Below are positions 17,600 to 25,679 of a stretch of 25,679 nucleotides of DNA, piece by piece; position 1 is the stretch's first letter, and each line of letters opens with the position of its first letter. The notes under the pieces are model-generated. The model did no database searches and was not told where the DNA came from. It saw only the letters and a program-made list of their open reading frames with translations. The position numbers were made by a program, and so were the translations under genes. The DNA is from a virus. Where the stretch lies: the IMG/VR virus record IMGVR_UViG_3300043446_005743, positions 1 to 25,679 of that record, one strand, 5' to 3'.

Positions 17600-19011
17600 G
17601 TGAGCTTTACAACGACTCAGACTATCTGGAGCTGACTATCAAATGTTTGTTCAGAGATAGATTGGTACTACAAAAAGCCGCAGATTTGCAGGTGAGACCT
17701 GAAGACTTTGGCACCATCAACATATACAATGCTTTCGTTGCTGCAGCATTAGAGATAGGAAAAACCTCATCAGGACCTATTAGTGACCAGCTATGCCTGG
17801 CCTATTTGAAAACAAAGCTAAAAGAATATAATATTCTGCAGGCAGAAATGTCTAGCGTGATGACCTTCTGGGAGTATATATATAACGATGAGCCTATCAC
17901 AGCAGACTATGTCCTGCAGCATTTCGCAGATTTTATAAAATTCAGAAGATATCAATTACTTAAGATAGGTAGTCACGTTACTCCGGAATCTCTGGTGCAG
18001 GAAGCCGGTCGGTTGGTGGCAGACATCAACTTAAAAAACTCCTCAGATTCTGTAAGGATGTTTGACCCTTTTGAGCAGCTTGTGCTGATCGAATACAAGG
18101 AAAGTTTGATGACAGGCTTCCCGGGTGTAGATGCTTCTACAAAAGGACTAAACTATCAGGAGCTCGGCTTGATACTAGGGCATAGCGGTTCAGGCAAAAC
18201 AGCCATGGCTGTGTACTCCGCCTTGAAAAACGCTCAAGCAGGTAAAAAAGTTTTATACATCTCTTTAGAGGAGCCTGCCGAAAACATCTGTTCGCGTTTA
18301 TACAGCAATATATTCAGAATACCCTACACTGACCTACACAAAGGTTCAGTATTGATGCAGCAGGATTTAAGAAATGCTTTTGAAAGTATGGATGCACGTG
18401 ATAAGTGCTCGTTGAGAAATTTCAAGGTACATGATTTGAGATATGTGTCGCCTGTGAGCTGCAAGTACCTCAAGACATACCTAGACCAGCTGTACAGCGA
18501 TACAGGCTATCATCCTGATTTGATTTATATTGATCAGCTGGACTACCTGACCACATCAGATAAATATGATGCGGAATGGTTAAAATACTCTAAAGCTGCT
18601 TTTGAAGTGGAAGATTTATCCAACCATCTGATAGGTGGACAGCATAAGTTTAGCATCTGGTTATTGCATCAGGCGGCAGGTAAGATGACCAGAAAATATA
18701 CCAATGCTGAAATCAGCGGCTTCAAGGGTGTAATCAAGCCTGTGGATATTGCGCTAGCCATAGGCAGAGATTCTCCTCAAGATACCACTGTAAGCATCTT
18801 CTCCTTAAAGTCTCGACATGCTAAAAACTGTCAGTTTGACTATTTTGCAGAGCTCGAGTTTATGAACTTCCAGCAGCTGGATAAAGCTGCTGAAGCAAGA
18901 GCAGACGAAGAGAAGAAAGATAGATCCCAGAGAACAGGCGGAAATTTCAAAAACATACCTTCAAGAGCTCCATTATTACCTGCAGCAGGAACAGGATTTT
19001 TAGCATCATGA
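17596..19011 (+). CDS. DnaB-like replicative helicase
   Basis: This 471-residue protein has the DnaB layout: a helical N-terminal domain (about 1-150) and a RecA-fold motor. The motor contains GLILGHSGSGKTA (Walker A 195-202), VLYISLEEP just after, a Walker B segment LIYIDQLDYL near 309-318 and ISGFKGVIKPVDIALAI toward the end, with a final SLKSRHAK basic patch. Members form hexamers that unwind DNA 5' to 3' at the fork. The C-terminal 45 residues are Glu/Lys-rich and then Pro/Ala-rich, probably a flexible tail. The start and stop both lie in ATGA overlaps. Confidence 0.9.
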   Translation: MSELYNDSDYLELTIKCLFRDRLVLQKAADLQVRPEDFGTINIYNAFVAAALEIGKTSSGPISDQLCLAYLKTKLKEYNILQAEMSSVMTFWEYIYNDEPITADYVLQHFADFIKFRRYQLLKIGSHVTPESLVQEAGRLVADINLKNSSDSVRMFDPFEQLVLIEYKESLMTGFPGVDASTKGLNYQELGLILGHSGSGKTAMAVYSALKNAQAGKKVLYISLEEPAENICSRLYSNIFRIPYTDLHKGSVLMQQDLRNAFESMDARDKCSLRNFKVHDLRYVSPVSCKYLKTYLDQLYSDTGYHPDLIYIDQLDYLTTSDKYDAEWLKYSKAAFEVEDLSNHLIGGQHKFSIWLLHQAAGKMTRKYTNAEISGFKGVIKPVDIALAIGRDSPQDTTVSIFSLKSRHAKNCQFDYFAELEFMNFQQLDKAAEARADEEKKDRSQRTGGNFKNIPSRAPLLPAAGTGFLAS

Positions 19012-21719
19012 GTGAAATAATTAAGAAACAAAAAATAGAAGTTAAACCGAATTTTGTTGAGGGGTCTCAGCCTGAGCTGATGATTGTGTTTTCGCATCCA
19101 GGTAAAGACGACCTAGAGGCTGGATGCTTCGGCGAAGCAGGTATGGCTACAGAGGTATTATCCGCCCTCAGTGGGGCAGGTATTCCTCTGGAGAAGGTAT
19201 ACTTCACAGGTATGGTCAGACACGGTATAGGTAATAAACCTAAACCCTCAGCAGAAGATATTGAAGAGTGGTCAAAGAAGCTGGATGAAGATATCGAGAC
19301 AGTAAAGCCCAGACTGATCATGCCGCTAGGGGCGGAGGTATTCAAGCGGATAATGAAATCCAACACCAAGATGGGAGATTATTTAGGGGAAATCGTGGAT
19401 ACTGCCTACGGTAAAGTTTTAGCCAACTATGCCCCCGGCATGATCGTGGTGATGGACCCTACCAAACGTCCTGAGTTTCGAGAAAATTTTGTGCTCGCAA
19501 AAAGATTTCTCGACAATAAGTTAAATTATAAAAATTATAAGTATGTTGTTATTGAAGACCCTCAAGACAACATAGCCATGCTCAATGCGTATATTAGCCG
19601 TGGAGAATTTCAGATAGGTTATGATGCAGAGTGGTTCGGTGAAAAATTTACGGACGATGAAGTGATGTATGAATTTCAGTACAGTTGTGAAAAGGATTTT
19701 GCGGTCGTATTGAATATCTCTAAAGATGGTATTACAGAGAATAGAGAGCTTCTGGACACCATGAAGATCATGCTAGAACATCCCAACGTAAAGCGTATGG
19801 GATGGAATATCCGTGCTGACGATCTGAGACTAACTCATAGAGGATTCAAGCTGGCTGATGAGACGCTAGCTTTCGACGGTATGAAAGCAGTGGCGTTTTT
19901 TGATTCTAGGCTAAGTAAAGGTCTTGAGACGGGAATCAAGTACTTCACTGAATACCCTCCATATTACACTGCGCTAAATAAAAAAATTAAAGAACATAAA
20001 CTTGGTAAAGCTGAACTAGCCAAGCTGAAGTTTTTGGAGCCTGATATATACTACCATTATTGCGCGGGAGACGCTGTAAGCCACAGAGAAGCCTGCTTGA
20101 ACATGAAGGCATCTTTTCCTGAAAATTTGAAAAGTTGCTATTATGATATCTATCTGCCACTGACCAGCTACTTCACAGACATGGAGTTTACTGGTATCGG
20201 TATAGATAAGAAGGTATTGCAAGATCTCACCGACAAGTATCTGCAAAAATATAACGAGTTAAAAGCAGAATTGATAGGCTATCTAAAAGATGAGTTTGGT
20301 GTGGAAGATTTTAATCCAAATTCTTCTCCGCAAAAAAAGTCACTTCTTTTTGAGACGCTTAAAGTGACACCAGCCTACTACACCAAATCAGGCAAATCTC
20401 CCAAGTCCAAAGTTTGGTACGATAGACAGAAACCTCAGACTCAAAAATTATACGAGCCTAGCACCAACGGTAAAAGTTTAAGTACAATTAAATTTCAGCT
20501 AGAAGAGCAGCTCGAGATATATTCAGATAACCCAGACTTAATGAGAGTGCATAAGGCGATTACTCTTTTGCTGAACCTGAATCGTGTGGGAGTATTTGCC
20601 ACGAAGTTTCTATCCAAAAAAGGCATAACTTCAGACGCGGACAGCCCTGACAACGAAATTGATGATGATGAAGAACCTCTCAAACAGAGCTATTGGGCAG
20701 CAATCTGTAAGGACGGTAGAATACATGCCAGCTTTTTTGAGTGCTTGAAAAACTTTAGGGCAAGCAGCAGCCCTAATGTGCAAAACCCAGCCTCAAAGGT
20801 TTTGGCATATATTCCGGATATCTTTGTACCTGGTTACAGTAAATTTAGCGACGAAGATCAAAAGAAGCATAAGCATTTGCTACCAGATAACATCAGAAAT
20901 ATTTTTTATACCGGTAAATCTGATTTCTATTGGGCTGAGCTGGATGTGGCTGGAGCAGACTTGGCTATCATGGCCTTTCTCTCTGGTGACGCACAGTTTA
21001 TCCACGACATCAGAGCAGGAAACTTTCATCAGACCAAGATGAGGGAATACTTTAACGATGGTACGTTAACCAAAAAAGATGTTTCAAAATATGTAATTGC
21101 CAAAAGCATCACGTTCCGTGTTTCCTATACCGCAGGGCTCGAATTCGCTGCTGTACCTATCCAGGCAGACATTTATGCTGAAAATGGGTTGCATGTAGGG
21201 GAAGAGACACTAAAGTATGCGCTAGAAACTTGGAAGAGATATGACAAGTATATGCTGTTCAGAGATAGATGTGTACAAGAAGTACAGAACCACAAAAGAA
21301 TAACCAACGCCAGAGGACTGATATTGAACTATGAGGAAACAGATAACTTTGGAATACTTGCAGGCTGGATGAATGAAAGTCTTGCTTTTCCGGTTGCAAG
21401 TGAGTTAGCTTGGTTTATGTGGGAATGTTCGATAAACCTAAAAACCCTTCTTAAAAATGAAGGGTTATGGATGAAATATGTGCTGCCTGTGAATACTGTG
21501 CATGATGCAGGCTATTGGGCAGTACACAAAGATCTGGTGAATGACGGCAGCATACAAGAGATACTGAAGTATGTATTTTGTCACTACACCAAGTTGGCCA
21601 CCGGAGACAACGTGGGATGCGAGTTATCTATTACTGACAGATGGAAAGGTAAAGAAAAAGTCTTCGAGAAAGAAACAGCTTGGAATTTTGGCAAAAATCA
21701 ATGGGAATGGAAACATTAA
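19008..21719 (+). CDS. DNA polymerase I with N-terminal UDG-like domain
   Basis: This 903-residue replicative polymerase has three parts. Residues about 20-170 resemble a family 4/5-type uracil-DNA glycosylase (HPGKDDLEAGCFGEAG, VYFTGMV with KPKPSAEDIEEW, IMPLGAEVF), an arrangement known from SPO1-type phage polymerases. Residues about 200-365 are a DEDDy 3'-5' proofreading exonuclease: D206-x-E208, N267-x3-D271 and Y351-x3-D355. The A-family polymerase follows. Motif A is LDVAGADLA with metal-binding D646, and D651 sits where Glu is usual. Motif B is KYVIAKSITFRVSY with K699, F703 and Y707, and Y695 sits where Arg is usual. Motif C is HDA at 832-834, where HDE is usual. The two metal-binding Asp residues are kept, so activity is likely. 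Confidence 0.93.
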   Translation: MSEIIKKQKIEVKPNFVEGSQPELMIVFSHPGKDDLEAGCFGEAGMATEVLSALSGAGIPLEKVYFTGMVRHGIGNKPKPSAEDIEEWSKKLDEDIETVKPRLIMPLGAEVFKRIMKSNTKMGDYLGEIVDTAYGKVLANYAPGMIVVMDPTKRPEFRENFVLAKRFLDNKLNYKNYKYVVIEDPQDNIAMLNAYISRGEFQIGYDAEWFGEKFTDDEVMYEFQYSCEKDFAVVLNISKDGITENRELLDTMKIMLEHPNVKRMGWNIRADDLRLTHRGFKLADETLAFDGMKAVAFFDSRLSKGLETGIKYFTEYPPYYTALNKKIKEHKLGKAELAKLKFLEPDIYYHYCAGDAVSHREACLNMKASFPENLKSCYYDIYLPLTSYFTDMEFTGIGIDKKVLQDLTDKYLQKYNELKAELIGYLKDEFGVEDFNPNSSPQKKSLLFETLKVTPAYYTKSGKSPKSKVWYDRQKPQTQKLYEPSTNGKSLSTIKFQLEEQLEIYSDNPDLMRVHKAITLLLNLNRVGVFATKFLSKKGITSDADSPDNEIDDDEEPLKQSYWAAICKDGRIHASFFECLKNFRASSSPNVQNPASKVLAYIPDIFVPGYSKFSDEDQKKHKHLLPDNIRNIFYTGKSDFYWAELDVAGADLAIMAFLSGDAQFIHDIRAGNFHQTKMREYFNDGTLTKKDVSKYVIAKSITFRVSYTAGLEFAAVPIQADIYAENGLHVGEETLKYALETWKRYDKYMLFRDRCVQEVQNHKRITNARGLILNYEETDNFGILAGWMNESLAFPVASELAWFMWECSINLKTLLKNEGLWMKYVLPVNTVHDAGYWAVHKDLVNDGSIQEILKYVFCHYTKLATGDNVGCELSITDRWKGKEKVFEKETAWNFGKNQWEWKH

Positions 21720-22421: not shown

Positions 22422-22673
22422 ATGTACTCCATCCAAATCGCAGACAAAACCGGCCACACCACAGTAGCAGACCTGGACGTTGATCAGGCTGTAGCCCAAA
22501 TCGTCCAGAACGCCCAGAGTAACGCTCGCTGGGTGTTCATTAACGGCGAGAAATTCGAGTTCCAAGGAACCGACTTCAGCACAGCACACAACACCCAGAA
22601 ACTTCGCTCAAAACTTGAGCAGGTTGGAGAGCAAGCTGCAATCCTGCTGACGGGTGTACTCGTCGGCGGATAA
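22422..22673 (+). CDS. Candidate ubiquitin-like protein with C-terminal Gly-Gly
   Basis: This 83-residue protein has a ubiquitin-like layout. Strand 1 is MYSIQIAD (1-8), then a TGH turn and strand 2 TTVADLDV (about 13-20). A helix follows at about 20-33 (DQAVAQIVQNAQ), then RWVFINGEKFEF (37-47), which parallels ubiquitin's RLIFAGKQLED hairpin, and a last strand AAILLTGVLV. The protein ends exactly in GG (82-83), the residues an E1 would adenylate and conjugate. Since nothing follows the Gly-Gly, no maturation cut would be needed. E1 and JAB genes lie 2-3 kb downstream. No cysteine is present. The fold is inferred from pattern, not alignment scores. A small hydrophobic-tailed membrane protein is the main alternative. 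Confidence 0.55.
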   Translation: MYSIQIADKTGHTTVADLDVDQAVAQIVQNAQSNARWVFINGEKFEFQGTDFSTAHNTQKLRSKLEQVGEQAAILLTGVLVGG

Positions 22674-22695
22674 TCCCCCCAACAAAAAAACCATT

Positions 22696-22726
22696 AGCCC
22701 CGGAGAGAAATCTCCGGGGCTTTTTT
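22696..22726 (+). terminator. Strong Rho-independent terminator
   Basis: AGCCCCGGAGA (22696-22706) pairs perfectly with TCTCCGGGGCT (22711-22721) around a GAAA tetraloop, followed by a run of T residues to 22726. It lies 23 bases after the candidate ubiquitin-like gene and before the 712-residue gene, so most transcription of the small gene should stop here. Confidence 0.93.
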
Positions 22727-22756
22727 AGGCCCAAATCACACAACACATCCAACACT

Positions 22757-24895
22757 ATGTATTTAGAATTCGTAAAAGCCAAAGCTTTCTCGAAAATTTT
22801 CGAGAAAATCAGTAAGCATGTAATTAGCACGGACGTGTCCATAGACACGTCTAATTGCTATGACACCACAGTCCAAAAGTATGTATCAAGAACATCTTTT
22901 AGGTACATAAATCCTATCTTCCCGGATATAAACAGTATGGTCGGGTTTAGTAAGTTCTCACCTATTCCCAAAAAGTTTAAAGTTGCGGACACCGCCGTTA
23001 ATGATGAGATTCAAGGCATACTTAGTTCGGCGCTATCGTTTGGAAGTAGTGCTACTGTGCAAAAATTGAGCGCATCGACAGCTAAAGGCCACAGAACAAT
23101 ACGATTGATTACAAACCGCACTCCAGAGTCGCTTATACCATGGATTGTGGAAAAAGCTCCCGTAGAGTATACATCAGGAGATTATACATACAGGCTCATT
23201 ACAGGAGAAAACAAAAAATCATACGAGCCTGAAATTAAACTGATAGCTGAGAGCAATGAACCTATATACGATTATCTGGATAGAGGTTATTTGCTTATGT
23301 GTCTAACCGAAAACGTTCCAAACCTTAGCGAGGCAAAAGAAGATTTTTTGGAAAGATTAGATGCTCATAAATGGGTTGTCTCTAACGTGTATGACCTCAA
23401 TACTGCACATATTTTCATGATGTGCAGGCTGCAGCCCTGTCTTACCGATCTATTGCAGGACGGCTGCTTCATTAATAGAGATGAAGCTGAGATGTTAAGA
23501 TTAAAAATGTTCAAAAAGCTTACACCTGAAGCTAAGGTAAACTATACTAAATTCTCTAGCGTATTGGATGAGGATTACAAACAAAACTCCACCATGGTGG
23601 TTGTGAATAAACTTATCAATCGTGAGATACCAAAAACAACCATCCGCGACATAGCGTTCTCCACGATCCATGCAAAGTATGAAAATGTCAGTATTCAAGC
23701 CGACAATCTGCTTGATGTATTGGAAAAAAAGTTAGATTTTAACGGGGAATTTGATATTTATACCGTGGTTGAGCTATACGCCCTGCATGTAAAAGGTAAC
23801 GCTGACACCGCAGCATGGACTGTAGATGAAATAAACAGAATCAACGCAGGAAATACTGAGCTTAAAAATAAAAAGATAGCAGATTTAAAGATTAACGATA
23901 TCGATATATCCGTAGACCTGAATTACTCAGGCCAGAGGTTTATCAACGATATACGTATCAATAAGGACGAGGTAGCCAAAGCACTACAACGGGCTTCCTG
24001 CTATCGCTCAGCGGAAGAGTATAATCTCTTCTTGAAAAGTATCAGCAGAATGAGTATACGTTGGCATGATATTATTGCCAACGGGCTGCAGGTTAAAATA
24101 CAAGATAATATCAGTCGGGAGGATTTACGTAATCCGCTACCTTCGATAAACGCTCCAGCCTTGAAATTCTTTGTGGATAATCAGGGTTATATCAATCTTC
24201 AAGTGACGCAAGAAAGAGGAGTTAGGGTAAATCTCAGCGCTTTGATAAAGAAGGTTGAAGTGATTAACAAAAAGACTGACGGAAGAGGTGTAAGAGATCT
24301 TTTAGGTCATTTTGTGTATAGAACCAACACCTGGTCATCCAGGAGGTTGATCGAAGCTCTGATTGAAACCACCACATTCAAGGAAAAAGTTAGGCAGGAA
24401 GATGGAACGATCAAAGAGGTGGAAAGAGTACTGATCAACGAGGACGACGTTACAAAGCTGCTTGCTGTTGTGGGGGCGCAGAGTAAGGCAAAAATAGAAA
24501 GATCTAAGAAATTCCTAGAAACTGCTGTACAGCTTACCAACGCGGAATTGATTCACTTCCGTGGTGAATCAGCGTACAAAGTGCAGGGAGCGTTACGCAC
24601 ATACGCAGTTGTGATCAGTACAGCCAAGGTCTATGACTACGATACAAAACAATATCGCTGCATTGTTAACGGTAGTCACTATAAGGGTGCGGGTTACGAT
24701 GATGTGGCAAGCAGGTTGCTAGCCTTGAAGAATGACTCCGTGATGGTAGATAGTATTCGCACACTTTCAGGCGCTGCCCAGCCTGGAGCCGAAAACGCAC
24801 ACCACTATATTCCTGAACGTGAGCACAATTCGGAAGATGTGAGTGAAAGCATTAAGAAAGCCTTCGAAGCTAAATTAAATGAATCCTTACAGTAA
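22757..24895 (+). CDS. Large unrecognised protein in Ubl/JAB/E1 cluster
   Basis: The 712-residue protein has no motif I can assign. It looks soluble with mixed helix and strand, and no signal peptide or membrane segment is evident. Cysteines are few and scattered (NCYD, MCLTE, MCRLQPC, GCFIN, SCYRS, RCIVN), so an E2-like or E3-like catalytic Cys cannot be picked by eye. The first 35 codons contain two strong inverted repeats. The 3' end overlaps the JAB gene by 17 bases, so it is probably translated with the JAB and E1 genes. It could be a substrate, scaffold or novel ligase of the conjugation set, or an unrelated phage virion or host-takeover protein; nothing seen decides this. Confidence 0.85.
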   Translation: MYLEFVKAKAFSKIFEKISKHVISTDVSIDTSNCYDTTVQKYVSRTSFRYINPIFPDINSMVGFSKFSPIPKKFKVADTAVNDEIQGILSSALSFGSSATVQKLSASTAKGHRTIRLITNRTPESLIPWIVEKAPVEYTSGDYTYRLITGENKKSYEPEIKLIAESNEPIYDYLDRGYLLMCLTENVPNLSEAKEDFLERLDAHKWVVSNVYDLNTAHIFMMCRLQPCLTDLLQDGCFINRDEAEMLRLKMFKKLTPEAKVNYTKFSSVLDEDYKQNSTMVVVNKLINREIPKTTIRDIAFSTIHAKYENVSIQADNLLDVLEKKLDFNGEFDIYTVVELYALHVKGNADTAAWTVDEINRINAGNTELKNKKIADLKINDIDISVDLNYSGQRFINDIRINKDEVAKALQRASCYRSAEEYNLFLKSISRMSIRWHDIIANGLQVKIQDNISREDLRNPLPSINAPALKFFVDNQGYINLQVTQERGVRVNLSALIKKVEVINKKTDGRGVRDLLGHFVYRTNTWSSRRLIEALIETTTFKEKVRQEDGTIKEVERVLINEDDVTKLLAVVGAQSKAKIERSKKFLETAVQLTNAELIHFRGESAYKVQGALRTYAVVISTAKVYDYDTKQYRCIVNGSHYKGAGYDDVASRLLALKNDSVMVDSIRTLSGAAQPGAENAHHYIPEREHNSEDVSESIKKAFEAKLNESLQ
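22786..22807. repeat. Perfect 22-base palindrome
   Basis: TTTCTCGAAAATTTTCGAGAAA is identical to its own reverse complement, centred between 22796 and 22797. It lies in codons 10-17 of the 712-residue gene (encoding FSKIFEK). It could be a binding site for a dimeric regulator or a cruciform/hairpin in the mRNA. No second copy was seen by eye. Confidence 0.85.
22822..22856 (+). repeat. Bulged inverted repeat in coding sequence
   Basis: GACGTGTC (22832-22839) pairs with GACACGTC (22844-22851) around the loop CATA. AATTA (22822-22826) pairs with TAATT (22852-22856) outside a five-base bulge. Together with the palindrome 14 bases upstream this forms two stable hairpins near the translation start of the 712-residue gene. 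Confidence 0.7.
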
Positions 24896-25319
24896 TAAGA
24901 ACTTGATATCCTTTTTCAAGGCGATTATGCAAGCTTCCGAGGAATGCAAAAATCGGAGTGAAGAGGAAGGCGGGGTGATACTGAATAAAGATGATTATTT
25001 TGAATTTATAAAGATAAAAAACGCACATGCTGACACATCTGTGGCCTTTGGTTTGTACGAAACAGACTTATCAGAGCTGTCGATGCGTGTGTTTCCTAAA
25101 ATAGCTGAAGGTTGGAAAATGTATGCCAGTTTTCATACACATCCAACATTCAGTCCGGTTCCAAGCAGTATAGATATGACAAAATTATTTCAAGGGTTTA
25201 AATACAACATTATATTTTCGCCTATAAAAGACATGTTTTCATATTCCTTCTGGAACAATGAAGAATCATTAATCAGCTACATTCCAAAATCAACAATAAC
25301 TCAACTAGTAAACAAATGA
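24879..25319 (+). CDS. JAB/JAMM-family metalloprotease
   Basis: The 146-residue single-domain protein carries the complete JAMM zinc motif. Glutamates are in EEEGGVIL (28-30), then H86-T-H88 with exactly seven residues to S96 and D99 (SSID). Family members hydrolyse isopeptide or peptide bonds after ubiquitin-like C-termini, and the two His and the Asp bind zinc. There is no NlpC/P60 domain, unlike the lambda K-type tail-assembly proteases. It starts 17 bases inside the 712-residue gene and overlaps the E1 gene in ATGA. Because the candidate Ubl already ends in Gly-Gly, removal of Ubl from targets is a more natural role here than precursor processing. That last step is inference. Confidence 0.9.
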   Translation: MNPYSNKNLISFFKAIMQASEECKNRSEEEGGVILNKDDYFEFIKIKNAHADTSVAFGLYETDLSELSMRVFPKIAEGWKMYASFHTHPTFSPVPSSIDMTKLFQGFKYNIIFSPIKDMFSYSFWNNEESLISYIPKSTITQLVNK

Positions 25320-25679
25320 CATTTAAAAAAATCGCCATTGCAGGTGCCGGAGGTATCGGTTCGAATTTACTGTCGATCCTCTTTGACTACGGATTCAATC
25401 GTAAGCAGTTTAACTACTACGATTGTACTGTAGATATATACGATGATGATACGGTAGATCTCAAAAACCTACTGCATCAGAACTTTAAGATTGATGATGT
25501 GGGTAAGTATAAAGTTGAGGTGATGGAGGACAAGTATGTTGTTAATGGTCACAAACGTAGACTAACAAAGGAAGATTTTCCGAATTACGATCTGATCTTC
25601 AGCTGCGTGGATAGCATGCCATTCAGGAAAGATTTGTATGAATATAGTTGGAACGAAGGTAAAGGTAAATTATTCTGGA
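25316..25679 (+). CDS. E1/ThiF/MoeB-family adenylating enzyme, 3'-truncated
   Basis: The gene starts at the ATG at 25316 in an ATGA overlap with the JAB gene and runs off the window after about 121 codons. The nucleotide-binding loop GAGGIG is at 10-15. The family signature appears as DDDTVDLKNLLHQNF from residue 43, comparable to MoeB-type D-x-D-TV...NL-R-Q, with His where Arg is usual. GKYKV at 63-67 carries the conserved Lys, and a YDLIFSCVDSMPFR stretch ends with the expected Asp near 99. These enzymes adenylate the C-terminal Gly of a ubiquitin-like protein. The catalytic Cys, any zinc site and any fused domains lie beyond the window. Confidence 0.92.
   Translation, partial: MTFKKIAIAGAGGIGSNLLSILFDYGFNRKQFNYYDCTVDIYDDDTVDLKNLLHQNFKIDDVGKYKVEVMEDKYVVNGHKRRLTKEDFPNYDLIFSCVDSMPFRKDLYEYSWNEGKGKLFW

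Follow-up and report, generated by a model that had tools for sequence, protein, structure and literature searches.

Phage and bacterial systems of Ubl, E1 and JAB

The described system closest to the locus studied here is PRTRC, the plasmid ParB-related, ThiF-related cassette, in which a small ubiquitin-like protein (Ubl), a JAB protease and a short activating enzyme (E1) lie within one operon. We infer that it corresponds to the operon type of row 6d, composed of Ubl, E2, JAB and E1, in the survey of Iyer et al. (2006, PMC1779556). An E1 and a JAB are also used for Ubl or Ubl-like conjugation in CBASS type II, 6A-MBL and Bil systems, where the E2 is fused or adjacent. In phages, a Ubl plus a JAB is found as lambda TAPI/TAPK; these loci have been described with JAB + NlpC and tail genes, the setting being tail assembly, with an NlpC fusion and no E1.

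The DNA analysed here is the IMG/VR virus record IMGVR_UViG_3300043446_005743, a contig of 25,679 bases that forms the whole of the window. It carries genes for terminase, UvdE, ThyX, SbcCD-like proteins, a helicase, a primase, a DnaB-like helicase and a DNA polymerase, and from this gene content its source is judged to be a large tailed phage. A preliminary description of the sequence had proposed a set of four genes (Ubl, a large protein, JAB and E1) at the right-hand end, and all four are present there as open reading frames, behind the polymerase:

19008..21719, + strand: A-type DNA polymerase gene, upstream neighbour of the module (PHROG 17, E = 1.2e-40; present in 24 loci)
22422..22673, + strand: Ubl, 83 aa, ending in LVGG (AF2 model of beta-grasp order; Gly-Gly invariant in relatives)
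22757..24895, + strand: large protein (LP), 712 aa, always between Ubl and JAB, with a weak DUF7737-like C-terminal region
24879..25319, + strand: JAB/JAMM metalloprotease, 146 aa, predicted Ubl maturase/deconjugase (PF14464, E = 9.8e-8; invariant catalytic residues)
25316..25679 (contig end), + strand: E1/ThiF-like activating enzyme, first 121 of ~198 residues (PF00899, E = 2e-16)

The LP and JAB reading frames overlap by 17 nt, and those of JAB and E1 share 4 nt (ATGA).

Among NCBIfam models the E1 matches PRTRC_ThiF best (E = 2.5e-11 to 3e-13), with an hhalign probability of 97–98%, but its scores of 43.4 and 49.7 bits fall far below the PRTRC_ThiF cut-off of 144.75. Unlike PRTRC, the phage module lacks an E2 of the PRTRC-B type, a Prok_Ub match and a JAB-N domain, and LP has no counterpart in PRTRC. 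Comparison of LP with three PRTRC-B proteins by hhalign gave no match, Prok-E2_D gave 0 matches in 12 related contigs in a search that returned no positive-control signal, and no ParB partner was seen among the source-contig proteins scanned. By these comparisons the module appears to be most like PRTRC without being a member. For the CBASS type II, 6A-MBL and Bil systems only sub-threshold matches were obtained here, and no effector, cGAS-like or MBL gene was recognised among the module neighbours. In contrast to lambda TAPI/TAPK, the context is one of replication and an E1 is present. We have filed the module as a new variant of the bacterial Ubl-E1-JAB modules and not as a member of PRTRC, CBASS or TAPI; a description of this four-gene module was not found in the papers searched.

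Conservation of the module and related sets in other phages

Relatives were collected with E1 and LP searches and then with alignments of both, giving 27 further viral contigs. The order Ubl-LP-JAB-E1 is found in 26/26 contigs that reach far enough upstream (25 relatives and the source contig), a count that includes near-duplicate contigs and rests on ~20 distinct sequences (two alignments of 21). The JAB-E1 pair singled out in the preliminary description is thus syntenic together with both genes upstream of it. Each related contig has one Ubl, and relatives that keep JAB and E1 next to no Gly-Gly protein were not encountered, either in these contigs or in those found through a gene outside the module. 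The latter retrieval, made to avoid circularity, used as query the gp32-position gene just downstream of the module, beside a UvsX-like recombinase. It returned 22 contigs, with the E1 in 22/22 and the whole module in all 19 that were long enough, and the module is therefore a core block of this phage lineage. For all four genes dN/dS is ~0.03–0.1 where measurable, and the Gly-Gly codons of the Ubl differ synonymously among relatives; with the 26/26 synteny and Gly-Gly, these values indicate that the module is not a chance arrangement. In some relatives a gene for a DnaQ-like 3'-5' exonuclease is inserted between LP and JAB (L017:12087-12728, L035:8148-8843).

The lineage carrying the module consists of large uncultured phages, and throughout it the module is flanked by the polymerase, gp32-position and UvsX genes. 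In cultured phages LP and the gp32-position protein had no match and the polymerase was matched only distantly. Shine-Dalgarno motifs precede 6/29 of the contig genes, compared with 13/15 in a Cupriavidus plasmid and 1/13 in crAss001. Since the leaders are A-rich and mostly free of such motifs, the contig fits a Bacteroidota-type host.

An E1 search of cultured phages located a set of Ubl-like, E2-like, JAB and E1 genes in the replication region of crAss-like phages, where it adjoins primase and uracil-DNA glycosylase:

L093:2298-6708: crAss001 gp79-gp76 (also in L064, L065 and L094-L098)

The first protein, gp79, has a Ubl-like N-terminus with a conserved SG/GG; gp78, with an invariant HSH...CxG, is E2-like by pattern only; gp77 is the JAB, and gp76 is a ThiF, which several records label as a protein of thiamine biosynthesis. 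Like ours, this set is an operon of the phage replication region in which a Ubl-like gene is followed by those for a middle protein, JAB and E1, and the E1s are homologous (99% probability in profile comparison). However, the same type of comparison showed no relationship to our module for the Ubl, the middle protein or the JAB, and the HSH...CxG pattern is missing from LP. As the gene order is shared but only the E1s are homologous, the comparison suggests that Ubl pathways have been recruited repeatedly, at least twice, into phage replication regions. The gp79-gp76 set was not found described as a Ubl system in the papers searched, and those on crAss phages that were consulted mention neither ThiF nor ubiquitin in their main text. 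In the jumbo Xanthomonas phage PhiXhv-16 an unknown protein of 892 aa is encoded directly upstream of a ThiF-like E1 (L099:2244-5618), a pair that is possibly another phage Ubl system.

The four proteins

The Gly-Gly of the Ubl is invariant in 26/26 sequences and is followed by nothing or by TK, RK, EI, C, ASL, QAVLFDIE or LLQELLSLE, so that the tails range from 0 to 9 residues, with a single one of 76. That longest tail, a lysine/arginine-rich extension behind the Gly-Gly, belongs to the Ubl at L062:2922-3407. Variation in the tail behind an invariant Gly-Gly typically marks a precursor in need of processing and, given the JAMM protease encoded alongside, the tails look as would be expected of a precursor trimmed by JAB. 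The AF2 model of the Ubl (pLDDT 84) has its elements (E2-8, E11-18, H20-33, E35-40, E43-45, H55-68 and E73-78) in the order beta-beta-alpha-beta-beta-alpha-beta, which is that of the beta-grasp fold and bears out the ubiquitin-like layout first proposed for this protein. Comparison with the PDB by Foldseek did not overturn that proposal: the top match is ubiquitin-like (TM 0.43, E = 0.075), most of the best matches are ubiquitin-like or other beta-grasp domains, and the list holds many ubiquitin-like, CIDE, TGS, PB1 and MoaD-like domains, all individually non-significant with none under 0.001. A beta-grasp fold is thus likely, though not proven.

The JAB is over the gathering score of Pfam Prok-JAB. 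The HxH-x7-SxxD motif originally read in it takes the form HTH-x7-SxxD (H86, H88, S96 and D99), with the glutamates of EEEGG upstream, and the glutamate, HxH and SxxD are invariant in 27 sequences.

The E1 scores 66 bits against Pfam ThiF, where the curated cut-off is 28.1, and a full-length relative reaches E = 3.5e-18. The GAGGIG, aspartate and lysine signature noted at the outset is present and conserved among relatives (GAGGIG, DDDT, NLLHQ and Lys66, with Arg29 also kept); the arginine of the usual NLxRQ is replaced by an invariant His (NLLHQ). The remainder of the enzyme is seen in relatives only, as the contig ends within the gene; there the protein is a short E1 of ~198 aa that keeps two cysteines, one of them in EEGGCLL. 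The GGC is invariant in 26 sequences and its cysteine is probably the thioester acceptor. A search of 84,980 bacterial and archaeal genomes for relatives of the E1 gave an ordinary MoeB-like gene only. In one related contig (L016:13157-14931) an insertion of ~1.15 kb splits the E1 gene at codon 47/48; it contains an ORF of 323 aa that resembles a LAGLIDADG-type homing endonuclease, and an Rfam intron match was absent.

LP is 660–730 aa long, with pairwise identities as low as 27% in an alignment of 21 sequences. It was seen in viral contigs only, with zero relatives among the same 84,980 genomes. Its invariant residues are those of RASC (C415), H437-D438 and QYRCIV...H (C635, H641), and include two cysteines. 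None of the 21 members scanned has a Pfam match above cut-offs; 20/21 give consistent but weak DUF7737 matches in the region around C635, with a best E value of 0.0015 that falls short of the cut-off. DUF7737 is probably a part of DUF4132 proteins, and papers on DUF4132 offered no lead in their abstracts. The model of LP is of moderate quality (pLDDT 76, pTM 0.53) and found no match in a PDB fold search; it matches one viral model, A0A516M0H5 (E = 2e-5), whose function is unnamed. Residues 635–693 are the best conserved yet the worst modelled part of the protein, and might be ordered only within a complex. A plasmid search with the LP C-terminus gave chance matches alone.

The possibility that LP is itself E2-like was rejected, as no such relationship was detected by Pfam (21 members), by hhalign against PRTRC-B/F and crAss gp78, or by the PDB fold search. 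A candidate E2-like motif in LP, HIFMMCxxQP...DGCF, was dropped because C237 is Ser in 2/21 LPs. The earlier remark that the locus has no recognisable E2 holds for the Pfam scan of LP and for 12 related contigs, where the searches ran in part without a positive-control signal.

The proposed pathway and its alternatives

The core of the Ubl-pathway interpretation is supported by these results, and we think it reasonably probable that the four genes encode a phage pathway of Ubl conjugation and deconjugation, working without an E2 and set within the replication genes. It is favoured by the synteny, the Gly-Gly with its tails, the model of beta-grasp order, the complete JAMM and E1 motifs, the PRTRC-like E1, the parallel in crAss-like phages and the lack of sulfur-donor enzymes described below. 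Against it stand the missing E2, an LP of no known fold with a moderate model, the non-significant Foldseek matches of the Ubl and the existence of sulfur-transfer trios.

In such a pathway JAB would cut the Ubl precursor behind the Gly-Gly where there is a tail, and may later strip the modifier from its targets. The E1 would adenylate the C-terminal glycine of the Ubl using ATP and then probably load the Ubl on the GGC cysteine. The activated Ubl would reach its target without a classical E2, with LP serving as a transfer or adaptor protein or as the main acceptor. As the module is fixed in an operon that runs polymerase, module, gp32-position protein and UvsX, the likeliest targets would be phage replication proteins, LP or a host protein that is contacted while phage DNA is replicated. 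We put forward as a tentative possibility that LP is a new Ubl transfer enzyme of non-E2 fold, a combined E2/E3 that uses one of the two invariant cysteines; the phage pathway would then be complete, of an undescribed kind, and aimed at its own replication machinery.

Trios of E1, Ubl and JAB also make up the sulfur systems QbsE/QbsD and CysO/Mec+, in which tails behind Gly-Gly are trimmed by JAB. The service of the same trio in sulfur transfer (Iyer et al. 2006, PMC1779556), together with the matches of our E1 to ThiF/MoeB models, raises the possibility of a sulfur carrier, whereby the E1 would make a Ubl thiocarboxylate, LP or a host enzyme would use the sulfur on a nucleotide, tRNA or DNA, and JAB would trim the Ubl. 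We consider this rather unlikely. Rhodanese, cysteine desulfurase and PAPS reductase were found in 0/12 related contigs (90–204 kb; controls positive), the E1 has neither a rhodanese nor CxxC zinc pairs, and LP does not match sulfur-transfer enzymes. The preliminary description had pointed to thiamine or molybdopterin genes as partners that would speak for sulfur transfer, and no such family occurs among the contig ORFs scanned. The lack of sulfur-donor enzymes favours conjugation over sulfur transfer and does not prove it, since host donors exist and a host IscS could still provide the sulfur.

Phages often modify host proteins, and counter-defence genes are usually patchy accessories. Counter-defence or host takeover, with the pathway tagging or untagging host proteins such as a defence protein bearing a bacterial Ubl, draws on the occurrence of bacterial Ubl conjugation in anti-phage CBASS Cap2/Cap3 (PMC10097602), yet we judge it improbable here: the module is always present between the polymerase and gp32/UvsX positions, dN/dS is low, and CBASS Cap3 was not matched above cut-off. 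Its place as a fixed core set next to polymerase and UvsX argues for a replication role rather than for accessory counter-defence. Lambda TAPI/TAPK, with their Ubl and JAB, have been proposed to act in virion or tail processing. Such a role is very improbable here in spite of weak PHROG matches of the JAB to tail proteins (phrog_5556, E = 1.3e-5), as the JAB is a stand-alone protein, is accompanied by an E1 and lies among replication genes.

If functional, the conjugation pathway would be the first, in the literature searched, to form a fixed core of a phage lineage and not a defence system of bacteria or a patchily distributed accessory. It would offer a testable case of DNA replication under post-translational control in a phage, possibly with a transfer mechanism independent of an E2, and the cultured crAss-like phages with their parallel set are a direct laboratory entry point. 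The findings suggest that the phages of this lineage run a ubiquitin-like tagging pathway of their own during infection.
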